NCBI GenBank assembly: GCA_025351345.1
Contig: JANXWB010000056.1
Location: forward strand, 1 to 52,869
Source of the DNA: Synechococcales cyanobacterium GL140_1_metabat_312
GTDB lineage: Bacteria > Cyanobacteriota > Cyanobacteriia > Leptolyngbyales > Leptolyngbyaceae
Length of the DNA: 52,869 bases
Direction of reading: 5' to 3'
The notes under the pieces: generated by a model
Told to the model about the DNA's origin: nothing
Seen by the model: only the letters and a program-made list of their open reading frames with translations
Databases searched by the model: none
Position numbers and translations under genes: made by a program
In this document: positions 816-50,536 of the stretch, in pieces
Position numbering within the stretch: the stretch's first letter is position 1
Layout: every line of letters starts with the position of its first letter

Positions 816-2339
816 GGCCGCTTTAATACTGCCAGTAATCAAACTAATTTCTGGCAACGCCGATCGACTCAAGCGGGCACTGGTGCATTGATTTCGACCG
901 TTTCGGTATTTGTAATATTGGGATTGTTGAACTTCATGGCAGTGCGACATTTATATCGTGTTGATTTGACGGATACGGCGCGGCTATCGATCGCACCAGA
1001 AACGCAACAGATTCTTAAAAACCTCAAACAGCCTGTGACACTTTACCTATTTGATAAAGAACAGTCCCCCGAAGATCGTGAACTACTGCAAAATTTTCGC
1101 CGTCAAAGCCCAAATTTTTCCTTTGAATTTGTCGATCCCGACGCGAATCCAGCATTAGCTAAGAAATTTGACATCAAAAATTCTAAGCAATCTCGTGATG
1201 TTCATCTCGAACTACCCAGCAAAAATCGTAAAGTATTTGTCCAGTCTCTAACTCCACAACAACCGATTTCAGAAAGTCGTTTAGTCAGTAGCTTATTGCA
1301 AATTCAAAGCGATCGTAAACCCCGAATTTACTTTACTCAAGGTCACGGGGAACGGAGTTTAGATCCGGGTGAAAAGAACTATGGTGAGGCATTCAAGCTT
1401 CTTCAAGATAAGAACTTTGAAGTATTACCGTTGAACTTAGCCCAGACCTTAAAAGTGCCTATTGATGCGGCAGCGGTAGTTTTAGCGGGTCCATCGAAAC
1501 CGTTTTTCGACGCAGAATTAAAGGCAATCCAGGACTATCTGGATCAGTCGGGAAATCTGATGGTGTTGATTGATCCAGAATCTCAGGCGAATTTGACGGA
1601 GTTGCTTAAAACTTGGGGATTGGTCTTAGACAATCGAGTAGCGATCGATGCCTCAGGTTCCGGTCAATTGTTAAAACTTGGGCCTGCTGCACCGATCGTT
1701 CAAGACTACAACGGCAATAATCACCCAATTACTAAAGAATTTGGCAATAACATTACCTTTTATCCCTTGTCTCGTCCGATCGAAATTCAGGAGGTTGCTG
1801 GGGTTCAGGCTACTCCGATCGCCCTAACCAACAAACAAAGCTGGGGCGAAAGTAATCTTCAAGAAAAACCGATTAAATTGAATGAAGGCGATCGGCCTGG
1901 TCCCTTGCCGTTGGCGGTTGCATTAGTGCGACAAGTGATCCCGAAGCCAATTGAACCCGCCGTCCGTCCCTCTTCTCCACTGGTCAACCCCGACGGTCAA
2001 ACTCCACCCGCTCCGATCGTAACGCTGTCTCCCACCGTTGGTCCGATCGTCAACCCCACGCAAACCCCGCGTGAATCTCGGCTCGTTATTTTTGGCAACT
2101 CTGCATTTGCAACGGATGCTTTCTTTGGTGCGCAGCTTAATGGCGATATGTTTCTAAATTCTGTTACTTGGGTCAGCCAAATTGAGGGTCAGGCGCTCTC
2201 CATTCGGCCTCGCGAAATCAAACGTCGCCAACTTAGTGCAACCCCTCAACAAGTGCAAATTGTAATGTTGCTAAGTGCTGTACTGCTTCCTATTCTTGGG
2301 TTTGGGCTAGCAGCTTGGATCGGCTGGCGACGACGTTAA
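801..2339 (+). CDS. GldG-family ABC-associated protein (5' end replaced)
   Basis: From about residue 168 of the open frame onward the protein matches the GldG / ABC-type 'gliding motility auxiliary' family common in cyanobacteria. It opens with FWQRRSTQAGT, followed by a membrane helix (ALISTVSVFVILGLLNFMAV) and RVDLTDTARLSIAPET. Then comes a soluble domain that includes PRIYFTQGHGERS and VLIDPE, a Pro-rich linker around residues 540-590, and a last helix (QIVMLLSAVLLPILGFGLAA) ending in WRRR. In this family the soluble part faces outward and works with an ABC transporter whose ATPase and permease genes usually lie just upstream. Here that upstream part is missing because of the junction near 800. 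The native start codon is therefore not visible. The C-terminus is complete. Confidence 0.8.
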   Translation, partial: WLLMLGRFNTASNQTNFWQRRSTQAGTGALISTVSVFVILGLLNFMAVRHLYRVDLTDTARLSIAPETQQILKNLKQPVTLYLFDKEQSPEDRELLQNFRRQSPNFSFEFVDPDANPALAKKFDIKNSKQSRDVHLELPSKNRKVFVQSLTPQQPISESRLVSSLLQIQSDRKPRIYFTQGHGERSLDPGEKNYGEAFKLLQDKNFEVLPLNLAQTLKVPIDAAAVVLAGPSKPFFDAELKAIQDYLDQSGNLMVLIDPESQANLTELLKTWGLVLDNRVAIDASGSGQLLKLGPAAPIVQDYNGNNHPITKEFGNNITFYPLSRPIEIQEVAGVQATPIALTNKQSWGESNLQEKPIKLNEGDRPGPLPLAVALVRQVIPKPIEPAVRPSSPLVNPDGQTPPAPIVTLSPTVGPIVNPTQTPRESRLVIFGNSAFATDAFFGAQLNGDMFLNSVTWVSQIEGQALSIRPREIKRRQLSATPQQVQIVMLLSAVLLPILGFGLAAWIGWRRR

Positions 2340-2496
2340 CCTAGATTTAAATCTAATTCAAACCGGATTCAAATCGATCACATTTAAAAAAGTCTTGAAA
2401 GTTTTAACACTTAATCGTCTCTCCAGTCGCCACCATGAGAATCAAGCATTCTAATCAACTGCTATTCTGATTTAAAGTTTCTTATGGCGGTAGGTT

Positions 2497-3120
2497 ATGG
2501 CAACGTTTCACCGAGTTCCACAGGTCTCATCCGCAGAAACCGAGACCCGCGATCGTATTCTAAAATCTGCTTTGAAACTCTTCTCCCGCAAAGGTTACGA
2601 CGGCACCACTACCCGAGAACTGGCTGAGGCAGCGGGCGTGGCAGAAGGGACGTTGTTTCGATATTTTACAAATAAAAAAGCAATTCTAGCGAAAGTTGCG
2701 ACCGATGGTTGGATTGAAATTCTGACCGACCTGCTGACGGAACTGAGTGAAATGGGCAGCTACAAAGCGGTTGCTCAGGTGATGAAACGTCGGATAGTGC
2801 ATTTACAGGAGAATGCAGATCTGATGCGGGTATGTTTTATGGAAGTTCAGTTCCACGAAGATTTGCGAGATCAAATTCAAACAGAAGTTGTCGAGAAGAT
2901 GACCGATGTGGGGGAAGCATTTTTTCAGACGGCCATGGACCAAGGTGTGTACCGTAAAATGAACCCCCGCCTGGTTGCAAGGGTGTTTTTGGGCATGTTT
3001 GCAATTTCTGGGTTTAGCCAAACCACCATTACTGATCCGGGTTCCACGGTGATGGAACTCAAGGAGATGGCTGAGGGTATTTCAGAAATCTTCCTCAATG
3101 GTGTGTTAGAAAAAGAGTAA
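2497..3120 (+). CDS. TetR/AcrR-family transcriptional regulator
   Basis: A 207-residue protein. Residues ~16-62 form the TetR helix-turn-helix: TRDRILKSALKLFSRKGYDG, then TTTRELAEAAGVAEGTLFRY and FTNKKAIL. The remainder is helical, as expected for a ligand-binding dimerisation domain, but it is not diagnostic of a ligand. TetR proteins repress target promoters and release on binding a small molecule. The ATG at 2497 follows GGCGGTAGGTT and fits the family's N-terminal length. No efflux gene is adjacent; the next gene on the same strand is an L,D-transpeptidase 48 bp downstream, so the target is unknown. Confidence 0.9.
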   Translation: MATFHRVPQVSSAETETRDRILKSALKLFSRKGYDGTTTRELAEAAGVAEGTLFRYFTNKKAILAKVATDGWIEILTDLLTELSEMGSYKAVAQVMKRRIVHLQENADLMRVCFMEVQFHEDLRDQIQTEVVEKMTDVGEAFFQTAMDQGVYRKMNPRLVARVFLGMFAISGFSQTTITDPGSTVMELKEMAEGISEIFLNGVLEKE

Positions 3121-3168
3121 TTCTACATACGTTTCCCACCCGTTTACTACCGTTTTTTCACCAAACCC

Positions 3169-3747
3169 ATGGCTACTGGACGTTCTAACGCTATACATTC
3201 CCAGTCTGTCACCCGTCCGTTGATGCTGATGTGCATGGCGATGGCTGGGTTGCTTTTATATCTCCAAAGCCGCGCTCCTCTGCCGCCTAAAGTTCCGGCG
3301 ACGGTATTGATGCCTAAATCTGTTCCTGTTGCTGAGCCTGTTTGGGGCGATCGGGCCGAAGACACAAGTTTGACGGTGGATTTGAGCGATCGGACGGTTT
3401 ATCTTTATCGCAATCAGAAATTAATAGCCAGCTATCAAGTGGCCGTGGGGCAACCAGGTTGGGAAACTCCTGTGGGCAATTTTCGCATTCGTCAAATGGT
3501 CAAAAATCCCGTTTGGCAGCATCCTATTACCGATGAAATTTTCCCTCCCGGAGACCTGAATCCTTTGGGCGTTCGATGGATTGGGTTTACGGCAGATGAG
3601 CATATGAAATTAGGGTTTCATGGGACCACGGGCGAGAGTGCTATTGGTCAGGCCGTGTCTCATGGCTGTTTGCGGATGAAAAATCAAGATGTGACAGCCT
3701 TGTTTAATCAAGTTTCGATCGGCACGATCGTCACAGTTCGCCCCTAG
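3169..3747 (+). CDS. L,D-transpeptidase (YkuD domain)
   Basis: A 192-residue protein with an N-terminal hydrophobic anchor (PLMLMCMAMAGLLLYLQ) and a short Pro-rich spacer. The YkuD catalytic domain runs from about residue 65 (SLTVDLSDRTVYLYRNQKLI) to the end. The active-site signature is visible: HGTTGESAIGQAVSHGCLRM, with the invariant His, Ser-His-Gly and nucleophilic Cys. These enzymes form 3-3 peptidoglycan cross-links or attach proteins to peptidoglycan in the periplasm. Length and domain placement are typical of single-domain cyanobacterial members. It is 48 bp after the TetR gene on the same strand and could be co-transcribed with it. Confidence 0.92.
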   Translation: MATGRSNAIHSQSVTRPLMLMCMAMAGLLLYLQSRAPLPPKVPATVLMPKSVPVAEPVWGDRAEDTSLTVDLSDRTVYLYRNQKLIASYQVAVGQPGWETPVGNFRIRQMVKNPVWQHPITDEIFPPGDLNPLGVRWIGFTADEHMKLGFHGTTGESAIGQAVSHGCLRMKNQDVTALFNQVSIGTIVTVRP

Positions 3748-47305: not shown

Positions 47306-50300
47306 CTAAAATGGTACATCGTCATCCTCGTCATCTTCGAGATCTTCCAAAGCATCACTGCCCATAATTTGTGCGTCTAAAGCGTCACTGCCCATAATTT
47401 GCTCGATCGTGCGTACTAACGCTTCCGGTTCTTCAATTACATCGATTTCATCATCTAGTGTGACAATTTTTCCATCAAATGCGATTGCTAGACTTTTCGT
47501 CGCTTTAGTCAATTCATCGACTTCCCAGGATGCTGCATGACCATCTATCTCCTTGGGTGCATGATCATAGATCATCGGTGCAGGAACTGGTTTTGGCGTG
47601 GTTTGGCGTGTGGTTTGGCGCGTTATGGGGATTACGTTTTGAGGCAGAATAGGCAGCGTGGGGATGGTCGGTTCAACTGGCAGGGGTTGAACCTTAGGGG
47701 CTTTTCCCTCCGGTCCCTTCCCTTCAGTGATAATGAACGTCATTTTCACCGCGCCTTTTAAGGTTTTGGCGCAGGCTTTGCCGAGTTGGGCCGATCGGGC
47801 TTTGACAATCGCTAAACTTGATTTTTGGGAAATACCAATTTTGATTTCTTGACCATTTAATTCTATAACGTGGCAGTTTGTACTAAGGATGGCCCGTGCT
47901 GGAATTTCTTCAATATTAGAAAGAATCTGCTGCCAAAGAGCAACCATATCTCGAAGACCATCGGATGGGGTTTCCGGCGGAGTTTCGATCGGTACAAGTT
48001 TAGGTGCTAATTCAGATTGAGTTTGAGATTGGGCTGTGGGTGTTTGCGGCTGTATTTGGTGTTGAGTTCGCGGCGGTGCTGTTGTGGGTGCGGCTTGCGA
48101 TCGGGCTATCGTTGGAATCCGATCGATGTTGGTCGGTGTTACCACTGAACCTAATGCGCTGGGCAGTAATCCCATTAATGTTATTTCTAACCAAAGTCTA
48201 GGCTGAGTTGTATGTTTGATTTGAACTTCTGCGGAGCGTAAATGCTGTTGACCTTTTAATATCCAAGCAATTTCTGCACCTTTTGCAAATGTGGTCATTT
48301 GTGCCCAAGTGGGTGGGGTGATTGCAGCTAGATCATTACGAGTTGGGGCGGTTTTTGCAATTAATAAATCACGATAGAAACTAGCTAAATTTTGTAATAC
48401 GATCATGGGTTCTCGCCCACGATCCATTAGTTTTCGCGTTTGGTCGAGCATGGTTTCAGCGTTGTCAGTTGCGATCGCTTGAACTAATGCCATTAGATCT
48501 CGTTCAGGAACGGCACCGACTAAATCCCAAACCTTATCCACGGAAACTTCATCGGGCGATAAACTCAATTGGTCTAATAAACTTTCGGCATCGCGCAATC
48601 CGCCTTGAGAGATTTGTCCGACGAGATGGAGCGCAGCAGGAGCGATCGCAATGTTTTCTTGTTTTGCGATATGAACTAAATGTTGAACTAAAGAATCTAG
48701 TGGAATTCGTCTAAAATCAAACCGTTGACATCGTGAAATAATGGTCGGCAGAACACGTTGAGGGTCGGTGGTTGCTAGGACAAAAATGACCCGATCGGGT
48801 GGTTCTTCTAATGTTTTTAACAAGGCATTAAATGCCGCACTTGTTAACATATGGCAATTATGGACGAGTAAGCCATTGGCAACAAAATTATGATTATCTT
48901 TAACTTCGATATCATAAACATTCTCAACAACATCAACTTCGATCGACTCAACGATCTCGAAATTTGTAGTCCATTGATGGAATCGAAAATTGTTTAAAGT
49001 CAGAGATCCATCGTCTTGATGCTTTGGCGTTGAGGCGTAGGAGTTGATATTGATTTCCTGTTGACTTTCGAGTGAATTTTTGAATTTTGGCTTCATAGCC
49101 TTGATCCAAGAGCCATTCAGACAGAATAAGTTGTTCAGCTTCAGAGAATCCTTCGGTATGAAGCTGAATTGTTGGACTTCCCCAGGAACTAATGGAGAGG
49201 GATCCATCGTCCATGTACCACCAAGCCATACCTTCAGGTGTAATAGCATTGAGCCAATCGAGTGTGACGAACTTTCGATCGCCATTCGGTTTGACGGTTG
49301 AAAAGACTGAATTGAGTTCTGGGTGACATTGAGTATGGGCGACGATTGATTGCTCCCCATAGCCTGCATTTTTGGTAGTCCGTAATTTTGGACGAAGTGC
49401 GGATAGTCTTTCGGTCTTGTACCGAAGCCATTTGATTTGTTTAATCCCATGAGTCCAGGCAATCCGGGGAAAGCGGCTGTGGGCATTTGGAAAGCCAATT
49501 GAGGCATCCCCAAAAAGTGTTCCATAGACCAATCCCAAAACGGTTGTATCGATCGCTTCTGATTCTGATATGAAGTTTTGAGTACGCTTATTCCAAAGTC
49601 CATGACCTTTGAGGTAAGGATGTCTAGACCATTGAATTTGAATACTTTGAATGCCTTTTCCTTTTTGTTGAAGAAACTCCGGAACGATGAGTTTGTTTCC
49701 ACAACCGCAGGCACAATTGGGGCGCAGCGGTTCGACATGTTGTAAGATGCCATTCCGATCGTATATCTTGGTCCCATAGGTATTTCCGCGAAACTGATGT
49801 CCTCTTGCATAACGCCGGATGCGACCGTCAGTTCCATATTCATAGATTGATTCCCCACAGCCACAGGTGCAGGGGATAAGATTTTCATTCCTTCTTTTAC
49901 GTCTTTGGCAGGAATCCATCCGCTTTCCGTCCTAATTAAATGATTACCCGTACATTGAATCTCCCGCGACGATTCAGTTCTGAGTTTTAGAGTCTGACGA
50001 ATTCCTTGATCGAGCCATCGGAGAATTGGCTTAAATTCCCATTCTTGTTTGTTCTCGTTGTAACTCAGTGCTTGTCTTCCCTGTAGTGTTGGATCATCAA
50101 TCCGCATTAATCCCGCATCGGTCATTACCAAGGCATTGCCTGTCAAACATTCGTCAATAATATAAACCTTATAACGACAACGAACAGGTGCAAATTGCGA
50201 TCGTTCAATCAATTCCCGAATGCTATCGACTCCCGTATTACTGGCTGCATCAATTTCAATTACATCCAGTGCATTGCCTTTGGTAATCTCCTGACAGACT

Positions 50301-50536
50301 TCACAAACTCCACAGGGCGTTGGGGTTGGGCTAGTTCCGGCGATGCAATTGAGTGATTTTGCAAAAATTCGGGCACTTGATGTTTTTCCCGTTCCCCGTG
50401 CACCTGTGAAAAGATAGGCTGGGGCAATGCGGTTTTGGGTGAGTGCGCTGCTGAGAGTGGTTGCGATCGCCTCTTGGCCCACCAGTTGCGCAAAGGTTTG
50501 GGGACGGTATTTGTGGTGGAGAGGAATGTAGGTCAT
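47306..50536 (-). CDS. dnaX: DNA polymerase III subunit gamma/tau, interrupted by an in-frame intein
   Basis: The full frame is 1076 codons; removing the intein (residues 130-560) leaves a 645-residue DnaX. The N-extein has the clamp-loader start YIPLHHKYRPQTFAQLVGQE, Walker A TGARGTGKTSSARIF (~44-58) and a zinc site with C64, C75, C78, C81. The Walker B strand VYIIDE is cut by the intein and resumes as CHMLTSAAFNALLKTLEE. Then come sensor 1 (ATTDPQRVLPTI), SRCQRFDFRRI, domain III, a Pro/Gln/Thr-rich linker and an acidic C-terminus ending DDDVPF. DnaX is the essential ATPase of the replicative clamp loader. QTTRQTT and a duplicated QIMGSDALD mark a low-complexity tail. Function depends on intein splicing. 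Confidence 0.96.
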   Translation of the reverse strand: MTYIPLHHKYRPQTFAQLVGQEAIATTLSSALTQNRIAPAYLFTGARGTGKTSSARIFAKSLNCIAGTSPTPTPCGVCEVCQEITKGNALDVIEIDAASNTGVDSIRELIERSQFAPVRCRYKVYIIDECLTGNALVMTDAGLMRIDDPTLQGRQALSYNENKQEWEFKPILRWLDQGIRQTLKLRTESSREIQCTGNHLIRTESGWIPAKDVKEGMKILSPAPVAVGNQSMNMELTVASGVMQEDISFAEIPMGPRYTIGMASYNMSNRCAPIVPAVVETNSSFRSFFNKKEKAFKVFKFNGLDILTSKVMDFGISVLKTSYQNQKRSIQPFWDWSMEHFLGMPQLAFQMPTAAFPGLPGLMGLNKSNGFGTRPKDYPHFVQNYGLPKMQAMGSNQSSPILNVTQNSIQSFQPSNRMAIESSSHSIGSMLLHLKVWLGGTWTMDPSPLVPGEVQQFSFIPKDSLKLNNLFCLNGSWIKAMKPKFKNSLESQQEININSYASTPKHQDDGSLTLNNFRFHQWTTNFEIVESIEVDVVENVYDIEVKDNHNFVANGLLVHNCHMLTSAAFNALLKTLEEPPDRVIFVLATTDPQRVLPTIISRCQRFDFRRIPLDSLVQHLVHIAKQENIAIAPAALHLVGQISQGGLRDAESLLDQLSLSPDEVSVDKVWDLVGAVPERDLMALVQAIATDNAETMLDQTRKLMDRGREPMIVLQNLASFYRDLLIAKTAPTRNDLAAITPPTWAQMTTFAKGAEIAWILKGQQHLRSAEVQIKHTTQPRLWLEITLMGLLPSALGSVVTPTNIDRIPTIARSQAAPTTAPPRTQHQIQPQTPTAQSQTQSELAPKLVPIETPPETPSDGLRDMVALWQQILSNIEEIPARAILSTNCHVIELNGQEIKIGISQKSSLAIVKARSAQLGKACAKTLKGAVKMTFIITEGKGPEGKAPKVQPLPVEPTIPTLPILPQNVIPITRQTTRQTTPKPVPAPMIYDHAPKEIDGHAASWEVDELTKATKSLAIAFDGKIVTLDDEIDVIEEPEALVRTIEQIMGSDALDAQIMGSDALEDLEDDEDDDVPF
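47350..47410. repeat. 30-nt tandem duplication in the 3' end of dnaX
   Basis: Two units with the shared core CACTGCCCATAATTTG lie exactly 30 nt apart and encode QIMGSDALDA / QIMGSDALED. It is an in-frame duplication of ten residues in the acidic tail and has little likely effect on function. Confidence 0.85.
48857..50149 (-). mobile_element. DnaX intein (431 residues)
   Basis: The insertion is in frame between IIDE and CHML, in the Walker B box, a known DnaX intein site in cyanobacteria. Block A: Cys130, CLTGNALVMTDAGLMRIDD. Block B: TGNH in REIQCTGNHLIRTESGWIPA. Block F: ENVYDIEVKDNHNFVANGL. Block G: LLVHN, with penultimate His559 and Asn560, then Cys561 as +1 residue. All catalytic residues for protein splicing are therefore present, in the dnaX frame. 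Between block B and block F lie ~310 codons that make no domain sense in this frame, because a homing endonuclease is encoded there in another frame (48948-49919). The dnaX frame nevertheless has no stop. Confidence 0.93.
48948..49919 (-). CDS. LAGLIDADG homing endonuclease nested out of frame in the DnaX intein
   Basis: A complete 323-codon ORF from ATG 49919 to TGA 48948-48950, in the +2 (= -1) frame relative to dnaX and wholly inside the intein. AGGACGGAAAGCGG precedes its ATG and could be a ribosome site. The N-terminal part has two CxCGC-type clusters (PCTCGCGESIY...ARGH at ~17-41; NCACGCGNKL...KGH at ~69-106), likely zinc-binding. The nuclease part has LAGLIDADG motif 1 LGLVYGTLFGDAS (~129-140, catalytic-type Asp138) and motif 2 EGMAWWYMDDGSL (~229-241). 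It ends in the usual SIPSMDYKF before its stop. It should cut intein-less dnaX alleles to spread the intein. Expression would need internal initiation or frameshifting. Confidence 0.88.
   Translation of the reverse strand: MDSCQRRKRRNENLIPCTCGCGESIYEYGTDGRIRRYARGHQFRGNTYGTKIYDRNGILQHVEPLRPNCACGCGNKLIVPEFLQQKGKGIQSIQIQWSRHPYLKGHGLWNKRTQNFISESEAIDTTVLGLVYGTLFGDASIGFPNAHSRFPRIAWTHGIKQIKWLRYKTERLSALRPKLRTTKNAGYGEQSIVAHTQCHPELNSVFSTVKPNGDRKFVTLDWLNAITPEGMAWWYMDDGSLSISSWGSPTIQLHTEGFSEAEQLILSEWLLDQGYEAKIQKFTRKSTGNQYQLLRLNAKASRRWISDFKQFSIPSMDYKFRDR

Follow-up and report, generated by a model that had tools for sequence, protein, structure and literature searches.

Can a homing endonuclease gene lie inside an intein without being fused to it, and can the intein still splice when it does? 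In standard descriptions of inteins, the endonuclease and the splicing domain form a single in-frame fusion. The dnaX gene of a Synechococcales cyanobacterium (contig JANXWB010000056.1; the window is the whole stretch of DNA that was analysed, 52,869 nucleotides) raises this question, as its intein holds a LAGLIDADG endonuclease gene that is read in another frame. We regard it as highly probable that one DNA stretch here encodes both a splicing intein and an internally initiated homing enzyme, with translation, cleavage, homing, and splicing being inferred.

Layout of the dnaX locus and its predicted products

The dnaX frame runs without a stop over 1076 codons (47306-50536, minus strand) when the open reading frames of the window are read, and DnaX models match it piecewise, on both sides of an Intein_splicing domain (Pfam, 1.2e-15). 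Within it lies an inner ORF (48948-49919, minus strand) that is complete from ATG to TGA, comprises 323 codons, matches LAGLIDADG_2 in Pfam (1e-21), and is offset by +2 from the dnaX frame. An earlier note had claimed as much, namely that the splicing blocks share a dnaX frame that is open for 1076 codons and that a complete 323-codon ORF with its own ATG and TGA occupies a different frame, and on both counts it is borne out. The features are as follows.

47306-50536, minus strand: dnaX (DNA polymerase III gamma/tau) with the intein; 1076 codons, no internal stop, DnaX model matches flanking the intein
50150-50536, minus strand: N-extein of DnaX, ending ...VYIIDE (ORF translation)
48857-50149, minus strand: intein of 431 codons, with Cys1, block B TxxH, blocks F and G, His-Asn, and then Cys+1 (Pfam Intein_splicing; 7cfv match at 1e-61)
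49859-50149, minus strand: N-terminal portion of the splicing domain (residues 1-97 of the intein), with most pLDDT values >90
48983-49858, minus strand: dnaX-frame linker, intein residues 98-389, overlapping the endonuclease gene (pLDDT <50, no predicted secondary structure; near-neutral in relatives)
48857-48982, minus strand: C-terminal portion of the splicing domain (residues 390-431 of the intein; structure model)
48948-49919, minus strand: LAGLIDADG_2 homing endonuclease ORF, 323 codons plus TGA, +2 to dnaX (Pfam, model, fold match)
49917-49919, minus strand: endonuclease ATG, spanning the block B Gly77-Trp78 codons (GGA TGG, 49916-49921; sequence)
49930-49933, minus strand: AGGA, weak and Shine-Dalgarno-like, 10 bases ahead of the ATG, not in all relatives (sequence)
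49797-49871, minus strand: first CxCGCG...H module at the endonuclease N-terminus, zinc-finger-like by inference (alignment)
49602-49715, minus strand: second module, CxCGCG...W..HP...H, zinc-finger-like by inference (alignment)
49500-49538, minus strand: first LAGLIDADG motif, LGLVYGTLFGDAS (Pfam, alignment)
49200-49235, minus strand: second LAGLIDADG motif, EGMAWWYMDDGS (Pfam, alignment)

The block names (B, F, and G) follow the usual nomenclature of inteins, and VYIIDE at the end of the N-extein is what we take to be the Walker B motif. The insertion point reads IDE|C...HN|CHML, and the host frame has the marks of a class 1 intein: Cys1, TxxH, the terminal His-Asn, and Cys+1. Residues C1, T67, H70, H430, and N431 are invariant across 37 aligned inteins; Cys+1 was read in the window copy. 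Endonuclease domains of inteins usually sit between blocks B and F. As the endonuclease stop codon is found directly ahead of block F, the nested gene fills the usual place of such a domain, but it does so at an offset of +2, and the window intein does not qualify as a canonical in-frame fusion.

The endonuclease model, built on a 44-row alignment, has a mean pLDDT of 87.9, and its best PDB matches by both sequence and fold are I-WcaI and I-SceI (sequence match to 6x1j at 4.1e-13; Foldseek E 3.8e-12, TMt 0.75). With two motifs bearing acidic residues, the family profile, and the predicted fold, the product has the features of a LAGLIDADG homing endonuclease, its cleavage of the insertion-free allele being inferred. 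I-SceI and I-WcaI are intron-encoded, whereas the window enzyme is encoded in an intein and has N-terminal CxCGCG modules. The dnaX-frame intein was modelled from a 37-row alignment with a mean pLDDT of 49.2. Residues 1-97 and 390-431, mostly with pLDDT >90, form a domain with the predicted Hint fold, best matched by the Spl DnaX mini-intein 7cfv (profile 1e-61; 58% identity in Foldseek), and the 292 residues between them (98-389) have pLDDT <50 and no secondary structure. On this model, the linker joining the halves of the splicing domain is predicted to be unstructured, which supports the view that the dnaX reading of the overlap is a linker opposite the endonuclease. Splicing of the window copy is itself inferred, from intact catalytic residues and from the Ssp DnaX intein (Synechocystis PCC 6803), which, to judge from the accessible parts of two papers, has been trimmed to active mini and split forms (PMC3443213, PMC3620165). 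Both the Ssp and the Spl DnaX inteins share their splicing-domain family with that of the window.

Recurrence, chance, and selection in the two frames

How widespread is the nested layout? Eight of 97 related genomes have a match, the window's own genome counted, and the match in one of them (G014) is a remnant inside a mini-intein (L008). The eight loci of this set with a long endonuclease frame are all in dnaX-type genes and all have the +2 offset. When named genomes were scanned with a single protein query, no relative was returned; an alignment-based scan gave 53 loci, from Nostoc, Microcoleus, Planktothrix, Anabaena, Leptolyngbya, Nodosilinea, Pseudanabaena, Microcystis, Laspinema, and other genera. 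We examined 89 loci, of which 81 have a recognisable intein at the dnaX site (including some sites counted twice, being present in two collections), six are different endonuclease loci or genes, and two end at a contig edge. The dnaX frame is free of stops in 81/81 inteins, and 59/81 contain an out-of-frame endonuclease of at least 270 codons, among them one (L066) scored as intact though it stops ~37 codons early. Removal of copies at ≥97% identity leaves 47 of the 59. Leptolyngbya sp. PCC 6406 (L077) is a cultured relative whose copy is intact. The check that the earlier note called for, of whether dnaX inteins from related cyanobacteria have this nested arrangement too, thus has a positive outcome.

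Intein length is exactly 430 codons in 53/81 and reaches 512-522 codons in L007, L090, and L092. L007 has additional repeats of the CxCGCG module at the endonuclease N-terminus, which indicates that modules can expand inside the overlap with the host frame unbroken.

An evenly drawn sample of the phylum, comprising 386 genomes, yielded endonuclease profile matches in 28, several of which are other LAGLIDADG enzymes. An intein is present at the dnaX site in 32 of the 386, as 15 contiguous mini-inteins and 17 two-piece matches with an insert. Among these 17, the +2 endonuclease is complete in ten. Inserts are shorter in the remaining seven, of which G151 has the longest (339 codons), with a +2 remnant. 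No in-frame endonuclease was seen at the dnaX site among the 32 inteins of this sample. One genus, which we guess to include Synechocystis PCC 6803, has matches in two of five genomes, one a full endonuclease and the other a remnant.

Could both frames be open by chance? The earlier note had put this at (61/64)^320, or below one in a million. We permuted the synonymous codons of one frame and counted the stops in the other, with 1000 shuffles per locus. Shuffling the endonuclease codons of the window copy gives a mean of 4.4 host-frame stops, and 1/1000 shuffles stays open; over the 47 non-redundant loci, the mean is 5.8 dnaX-frame stops, with ~1 in 1000 open. The reverse shuffle, of dnaX-frame codons, gives a mean of 14.1 endonuclease-frame stops, and 0 of 47 x 1000 are open. 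Outside the endonuclease, the +2 frame averages 12 stops per 100 codons and, as a control, 18/18 non-nested relatives have at least four stops (4 to 47) in each other forward frame. The openness of both frames at the window locus exceeds chance. This conclusion of the note stands, but its figure is too extreme for a single locus at which the shuffles give about 1 in 1000.

The same note held that both frames seem to be under selection. Here, we drew 12 independent pairs from those 35 of the 47 loci that share a start and a length of 430 codons, which leaves out the window copy (431), and sorted differences with unchanged neighbours over codons 94-400 according to what they alter in each of the two frames. 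At kappa 2, substitution rates are 0.039 for changes that alter both proteins, 0.215 for those that alter the host reading only, and 0.051 for those that alter the endonuclease only; changes silent in both frames have a rate of 0.29, also at kappa 2, from 18 changes only. For the endonuclease, omega comes to 0.18, with a bootstrap range of 0.15-0.23 and values of 0.14 to 0.24 when kappa is varied from 1 to 4. The host reading has an omega of 0.74 (bootstrap 0.54-1.12), which kappa does not affect, whereas a second host ratio shifts with kappa between 0.58 and 0.99. It should be remembered that the host value depends on just those 18 doubly silent changes. Changes to a host stop were expected 32.8 times and observed 0 times.

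Divergence within the overlap is highest at endonuclease codon position 3 (0.183 vs 0.053 and 0.083), and in the N-terminal splicing block it peaks at host position 3 (0.298). Fourfold-site divergence (11 pairs) is 0.19 in the endonuclease frame, 0.31 in the splicing domain, and 0.42 in the exteins; the lower value in the endonuclease frame means either that the host reading is not wholly free or that the stretches differ otherwise. As far as comparison of sequences can tell, the endonuclease is under strong purifying selection as a protein, and the dnaX frame across the overlap is near-neutral in its residues and selected mainly for staying open. Selection on both frames is thereby upheld, in very unequal form.

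Selection for a polar linker was also considered and is unsupported: the linkers show no reduction in hydropathy relative to shuffles, and only 12/47 loci lie below the shuffle mean. Divergence of exteins against that of inteins is too noisy to serve as proof of horizontal transfer. The top pairs all involve L051, and, with L051 removed, all involve L074; the former was left out because of a run of unread bases in its flank, and the dominance of the latter perhaps comes from an indel in its flank.

These data bear on two ways of explaining the nested frame away. The earlier note had named its own refutation, a sequencing or assembly error in which two compensating indels displaced an ordinary in-frame endonuclease. 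As the same +2 layout is shared with other genera at about 44-62% protein identity, and is present in unrelated assemblies that include a complete chromosome (L047), such an error is refuted by recurrence, and we leave it practically no weight; the constant length of 430 codons in 53/81 inteins and a substitution pattern that fits two open frames speak against it as well. Alternatively, the window's endonuclease frame may be a dead relic that has stayed open by luck. Relatives do contain broken copies (the seven named in the next section), and the window copy, with its 431 codons, is absent from the omega pairs of 430-codon inteins. Nevertheless, we consider a relic very unlikely given the omega of 0.18 over 12 independent pairs of relatives, the LAGLIDADG residues retained in the window copy, and its 323 stop-free codons with a model of mean pLDDT 88.

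Decay, the start signal, and the proposed mechanism

What remains when the endonuclease is lost? A stop breaks the endonuclease frame at full intein length in 7/81 inteins (L009, L052, L061, L071, L073, L078, and L083), and another 15/81 carry internal deletions; every one of these 22 retains an intact host frame. A script was able to read block B in 12 of the 15 contiguous mini-inteins from the 386-genome sample, and 9/12 keep the endonuclease N-terminus with a CECGC module in the +2 frame, most of the nine then showing the C-terminal end of the endonuclease (YKFG..C.PRW or like). The exceptions are L116 (no trace), L114 (first residues only), and L107 (a broken trace). Please note that the first and last endonuclease residues overlap conserved splicing-domain codons and are weak evidence alone. 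The CECGC module belongs to the endonuclease, and the scarred mini-inteins are for this reason most simply read as deletion products.

L009 (G006:C8) is a second dnaX-like gene of the genome that also gave L003. The endonuclease of its nested intein is broken by a TGA, and its host frame ends soon after the intein.

The ribosome site that the earlier note called plausible is there in the window, as AGGA, but it is weak and not conserved. Of the 47 loci, 44 could be placed by script; AGGA precedes the ATG in 18/44, nothing SD-like was matched in 15/44, and no conserved ribosome site was found upstream of the ATG in these 44 loci. A weak and variable start signal might, by inference, suit a low-level homing enzyme. 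The GGA codon that forms the ATG was dropped as a sign of start-codon use: it is retained in 20/21 loci that lost the endonuclease, so that the presence of the ATG is no proof that it is used. Two of the 44 loci, L090 and L092, have GGC instead and form no ATG at block B. L084 (Microcystis sp. LSC13-02) has Ala-Trp (GCA TGG) instead of the block B Gly-Trp and still forms the endonuclease ATG.

The mechanism that we propose draws on the layout, its recurrence, the selection in each frame, the decay states, and the predicted folds, all obtained in this analysis, whereas internal initiation, cleavage, homing, and splicing are inferred. One ribosome would read the dnaX frame through, giving DnaX with Hint halves joined by a ~290-residue unstructured linker, and the intein would then excise to restore DnaX. 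A second ribosome would start at the internal ATG that lies across the block B Gly-Trp codons and would read the +2 frame, making a separate I-SceI/I-WcaI-like LAGLIDADG endonuclease that ends ahead of block F. By inference, this enzyme would cleave intein-free copies of dnaX where the intein inserts, and repair would then copy the intein in. The cell needs DnaX, and for that reason the host reading would be kept stop-free and in register. With homing over, the endonuclease would decay via stops or in-frame deletions, and mini-inteins would result. The requirement for an open host frame that keeps its register should also purge frameshifts from the endonuclease gene, and decay could then proceed only by substitution or in-frame deletion, the two states seen.

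Bacterial dnaX is a classic frameshift gene, so the endonuclease could conceivably be made by ribosomal frameshifting from the dnaX frame, fused to the N-part of the intein, and not from a start of its own. The weak start signal is compatible with this, as are some loci in which the endonuclease frame is open well upstream of the ATG (29 codons in L003). In many loci, however, that of the window among them, the endonuclease frame is open for only 1 to 4 codons from its last upstream stop to the ATG, so that a slip would have little space and an internal start is favoured; without a search for slippery motifs, we consider frameshifting improbable rather than excluded. A self-splicing intron with an ORF, to which the openness of the dnaX frame would be incidental, gains some colour from I-SceI and I-WcaI, the nearest endonucleases of known structure, which are encoded in introns. 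Yet the splicing blocks are conserved in the dnaX frame, host stops occur in 0/81 loci, host-stop substitutions number 0 against 32.8 expected, and Ssp DnaX intein constructs splice as protein, as far as the accessible parts of those papers go (PMC3443213, PMC3620165). We reject the intron, albeit without an intron-model search, and retain a protein-splicing intein with an internally started endonuclease as our preferred reading.

Known systems, relatives outside dnaX, and origin

Inteins, LAGLIDADG enzymes, and DnaX inteins are all known already; the layout within a splicing intein appears to be new, with priority open. The native Ssp DnaX intein is 430 residues long. A 1997 paper by Liu and Hu is said to deal with the DnaX intein. 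In the accessible parts of the papers on Ssp DnaX constructs, the middle that was removed is classed among putative (complete or partial) endonuclease domains, and no other frame is mentioned there. Canonical bifunctional inteins such as PI-SceI likewise have a Hint domain with the endonuclease between blocks B and F, but their endonuclease is an in-frame domain, whereas that of the window is in a separate frame opposite a linker predicted to be disordered.

An out-of-frame HNH endonuclease has been described in an insertion of a phage methylase, the ShiLan domain (PMC11855218), and a second paper appears also to concern out-of-frame endonucleases (PMC12613952). The window locus fits the ShiLan pattern, a homing-type endonuclease gene in the other frame of an insertion with the host frame open. 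According to the accessible text, the ShiLan enzyme is of the HNH type and its insertion has no detectable splicing domain and is thought to be retained in the protein, whereas the window has a LAGLIDADG enzyme and a complete splicing domain, so that the inserted reading can be removed. The earlier note knew of no described example. For an endonuclease nested out of frame within a splicing intein, we too found no description in open-licence PMC literature, but the out-of-frame HNH enzyme without a splicing domain is in print (PMC11855218), and an earlier description is not ruled out: that paper refers to Gorbalenya 1998 (“Non-canonical inteins”) next to its remarks about overlapping reading frames.

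Shared DNA with separate frames offers a way for an endonuclease gene to enter or leave a splicing element outside the spliced protein. It bears on the origin of mini-inteins and turns the union of endonuclease and splicing domain into a question that can be tested at the bench. These loci also supply long overlapping genes (~320 codons) in dozens of natural replicates, with one frame nearly free. Annotation may miss such genes, as is suggested by the FoX3 helicase record, which lists no endonuclease there.

Is nesting confined to dnaX? A +2 nested LAGLIDADG_2 endonuclease was found in four phage helicase-type genes, namely the “putative DNA helicase” of Xanthomonas phage FoX3 (L142, MT161383) and genes on three IMG/VR contigs (L133, L150, and L153). 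Intein_splicing is matched in all four, with the insertion at a DE|C...HN|C site (...AHN|C in L153); the FoX3 endonuclease ORF is without N-terminal modules. Two terminase-type genes on IMG/VR contigs have a +1 nested endonuclease, at 2752-3897 of L157 (the same in L158) and 2977-4512 of L159. Their terminase profile matches are 1.8e-5, just under the cut-off, for L157 and 2.5e-9, over it, for L159; Intein_splicing is under the cut-off for L159 and was not found for L157, and the intein call in these two rests mainly on visual reading of the intein ends. The in-frame layout is seen in the RNA ligase inteins of phage KLEP7 and a Miltoncostaea plasmid (frames taken from coordinates), in a terminase-like protein (L134), and in a LAGLIDADG intein of L098 (G350:C28:4000-9000), whose host protein is presumably uracil-DNA-glycosylase-like. 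Free-standing relatives include L100, L040, L155, and others. Six of 15 phage records were opened.

In the tree, the dnaX endonucleases group (99/99) and three of the four phage helicase ones join them (95/73). The position of the fourth, FoX3, is unresolved, and the two +1 rows are separate from each other. A single origin of +2 takes one change, with support of 66/92, and appears in 68% of bootstrap trees. This final tree left out three long free-standing rows; an earlier one that included them needed three +2 changes, but with row L143 in the wrong frame. Whether +2 nesting had a single origin is undecided on these alignments. The suggestion in the earlier note that an endonuclease gene invaded a mini-intein fits the family, which is LAGLIDADG_2, I-SceI/I-WcaI-like, and has free-standing members, but in-frame relatives also exist, so a frameshift in a formerly in-frame domain stays possible as the origin.

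A broader proposal, which we judge equally apt to prove right or wrong, is that frame-shifted nesting constitutes a third recurrent build of mobile inteins, beside in-frame fusion and the split intein with a free-standing endonuclease. It would have evolved at least twice (with +2 nesting in dnaX and phage helicases and +1 nesting in phage terminases), would persist because the host frame, being needed, eliminates frameshifts and thereby protects the endonuclease gene from decay by indels, and would have given rise to many of the cyanobacterial DnaX mini-inteins by deletion.

Some individual records deserve mention. The nested LAGLIDADG_2 endonuclease of L142, at 2295-3236 (MT161383.1, FoX3 gp40), is unannotated in the record; gp40 is annotated as a DNA helicase, and its RefSeq copy as “head morphogenesis.” The nested ORF of L159 has 512 codons, with a long charged stretch following a CxxC zinc-finger-like module. 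L100 (1198-2172) and L040 are free-standing LAGLIDADG endonuclease genes in cyanobacteria, and L100 lies directly upstream of another gene, which we take to be DndC-like.
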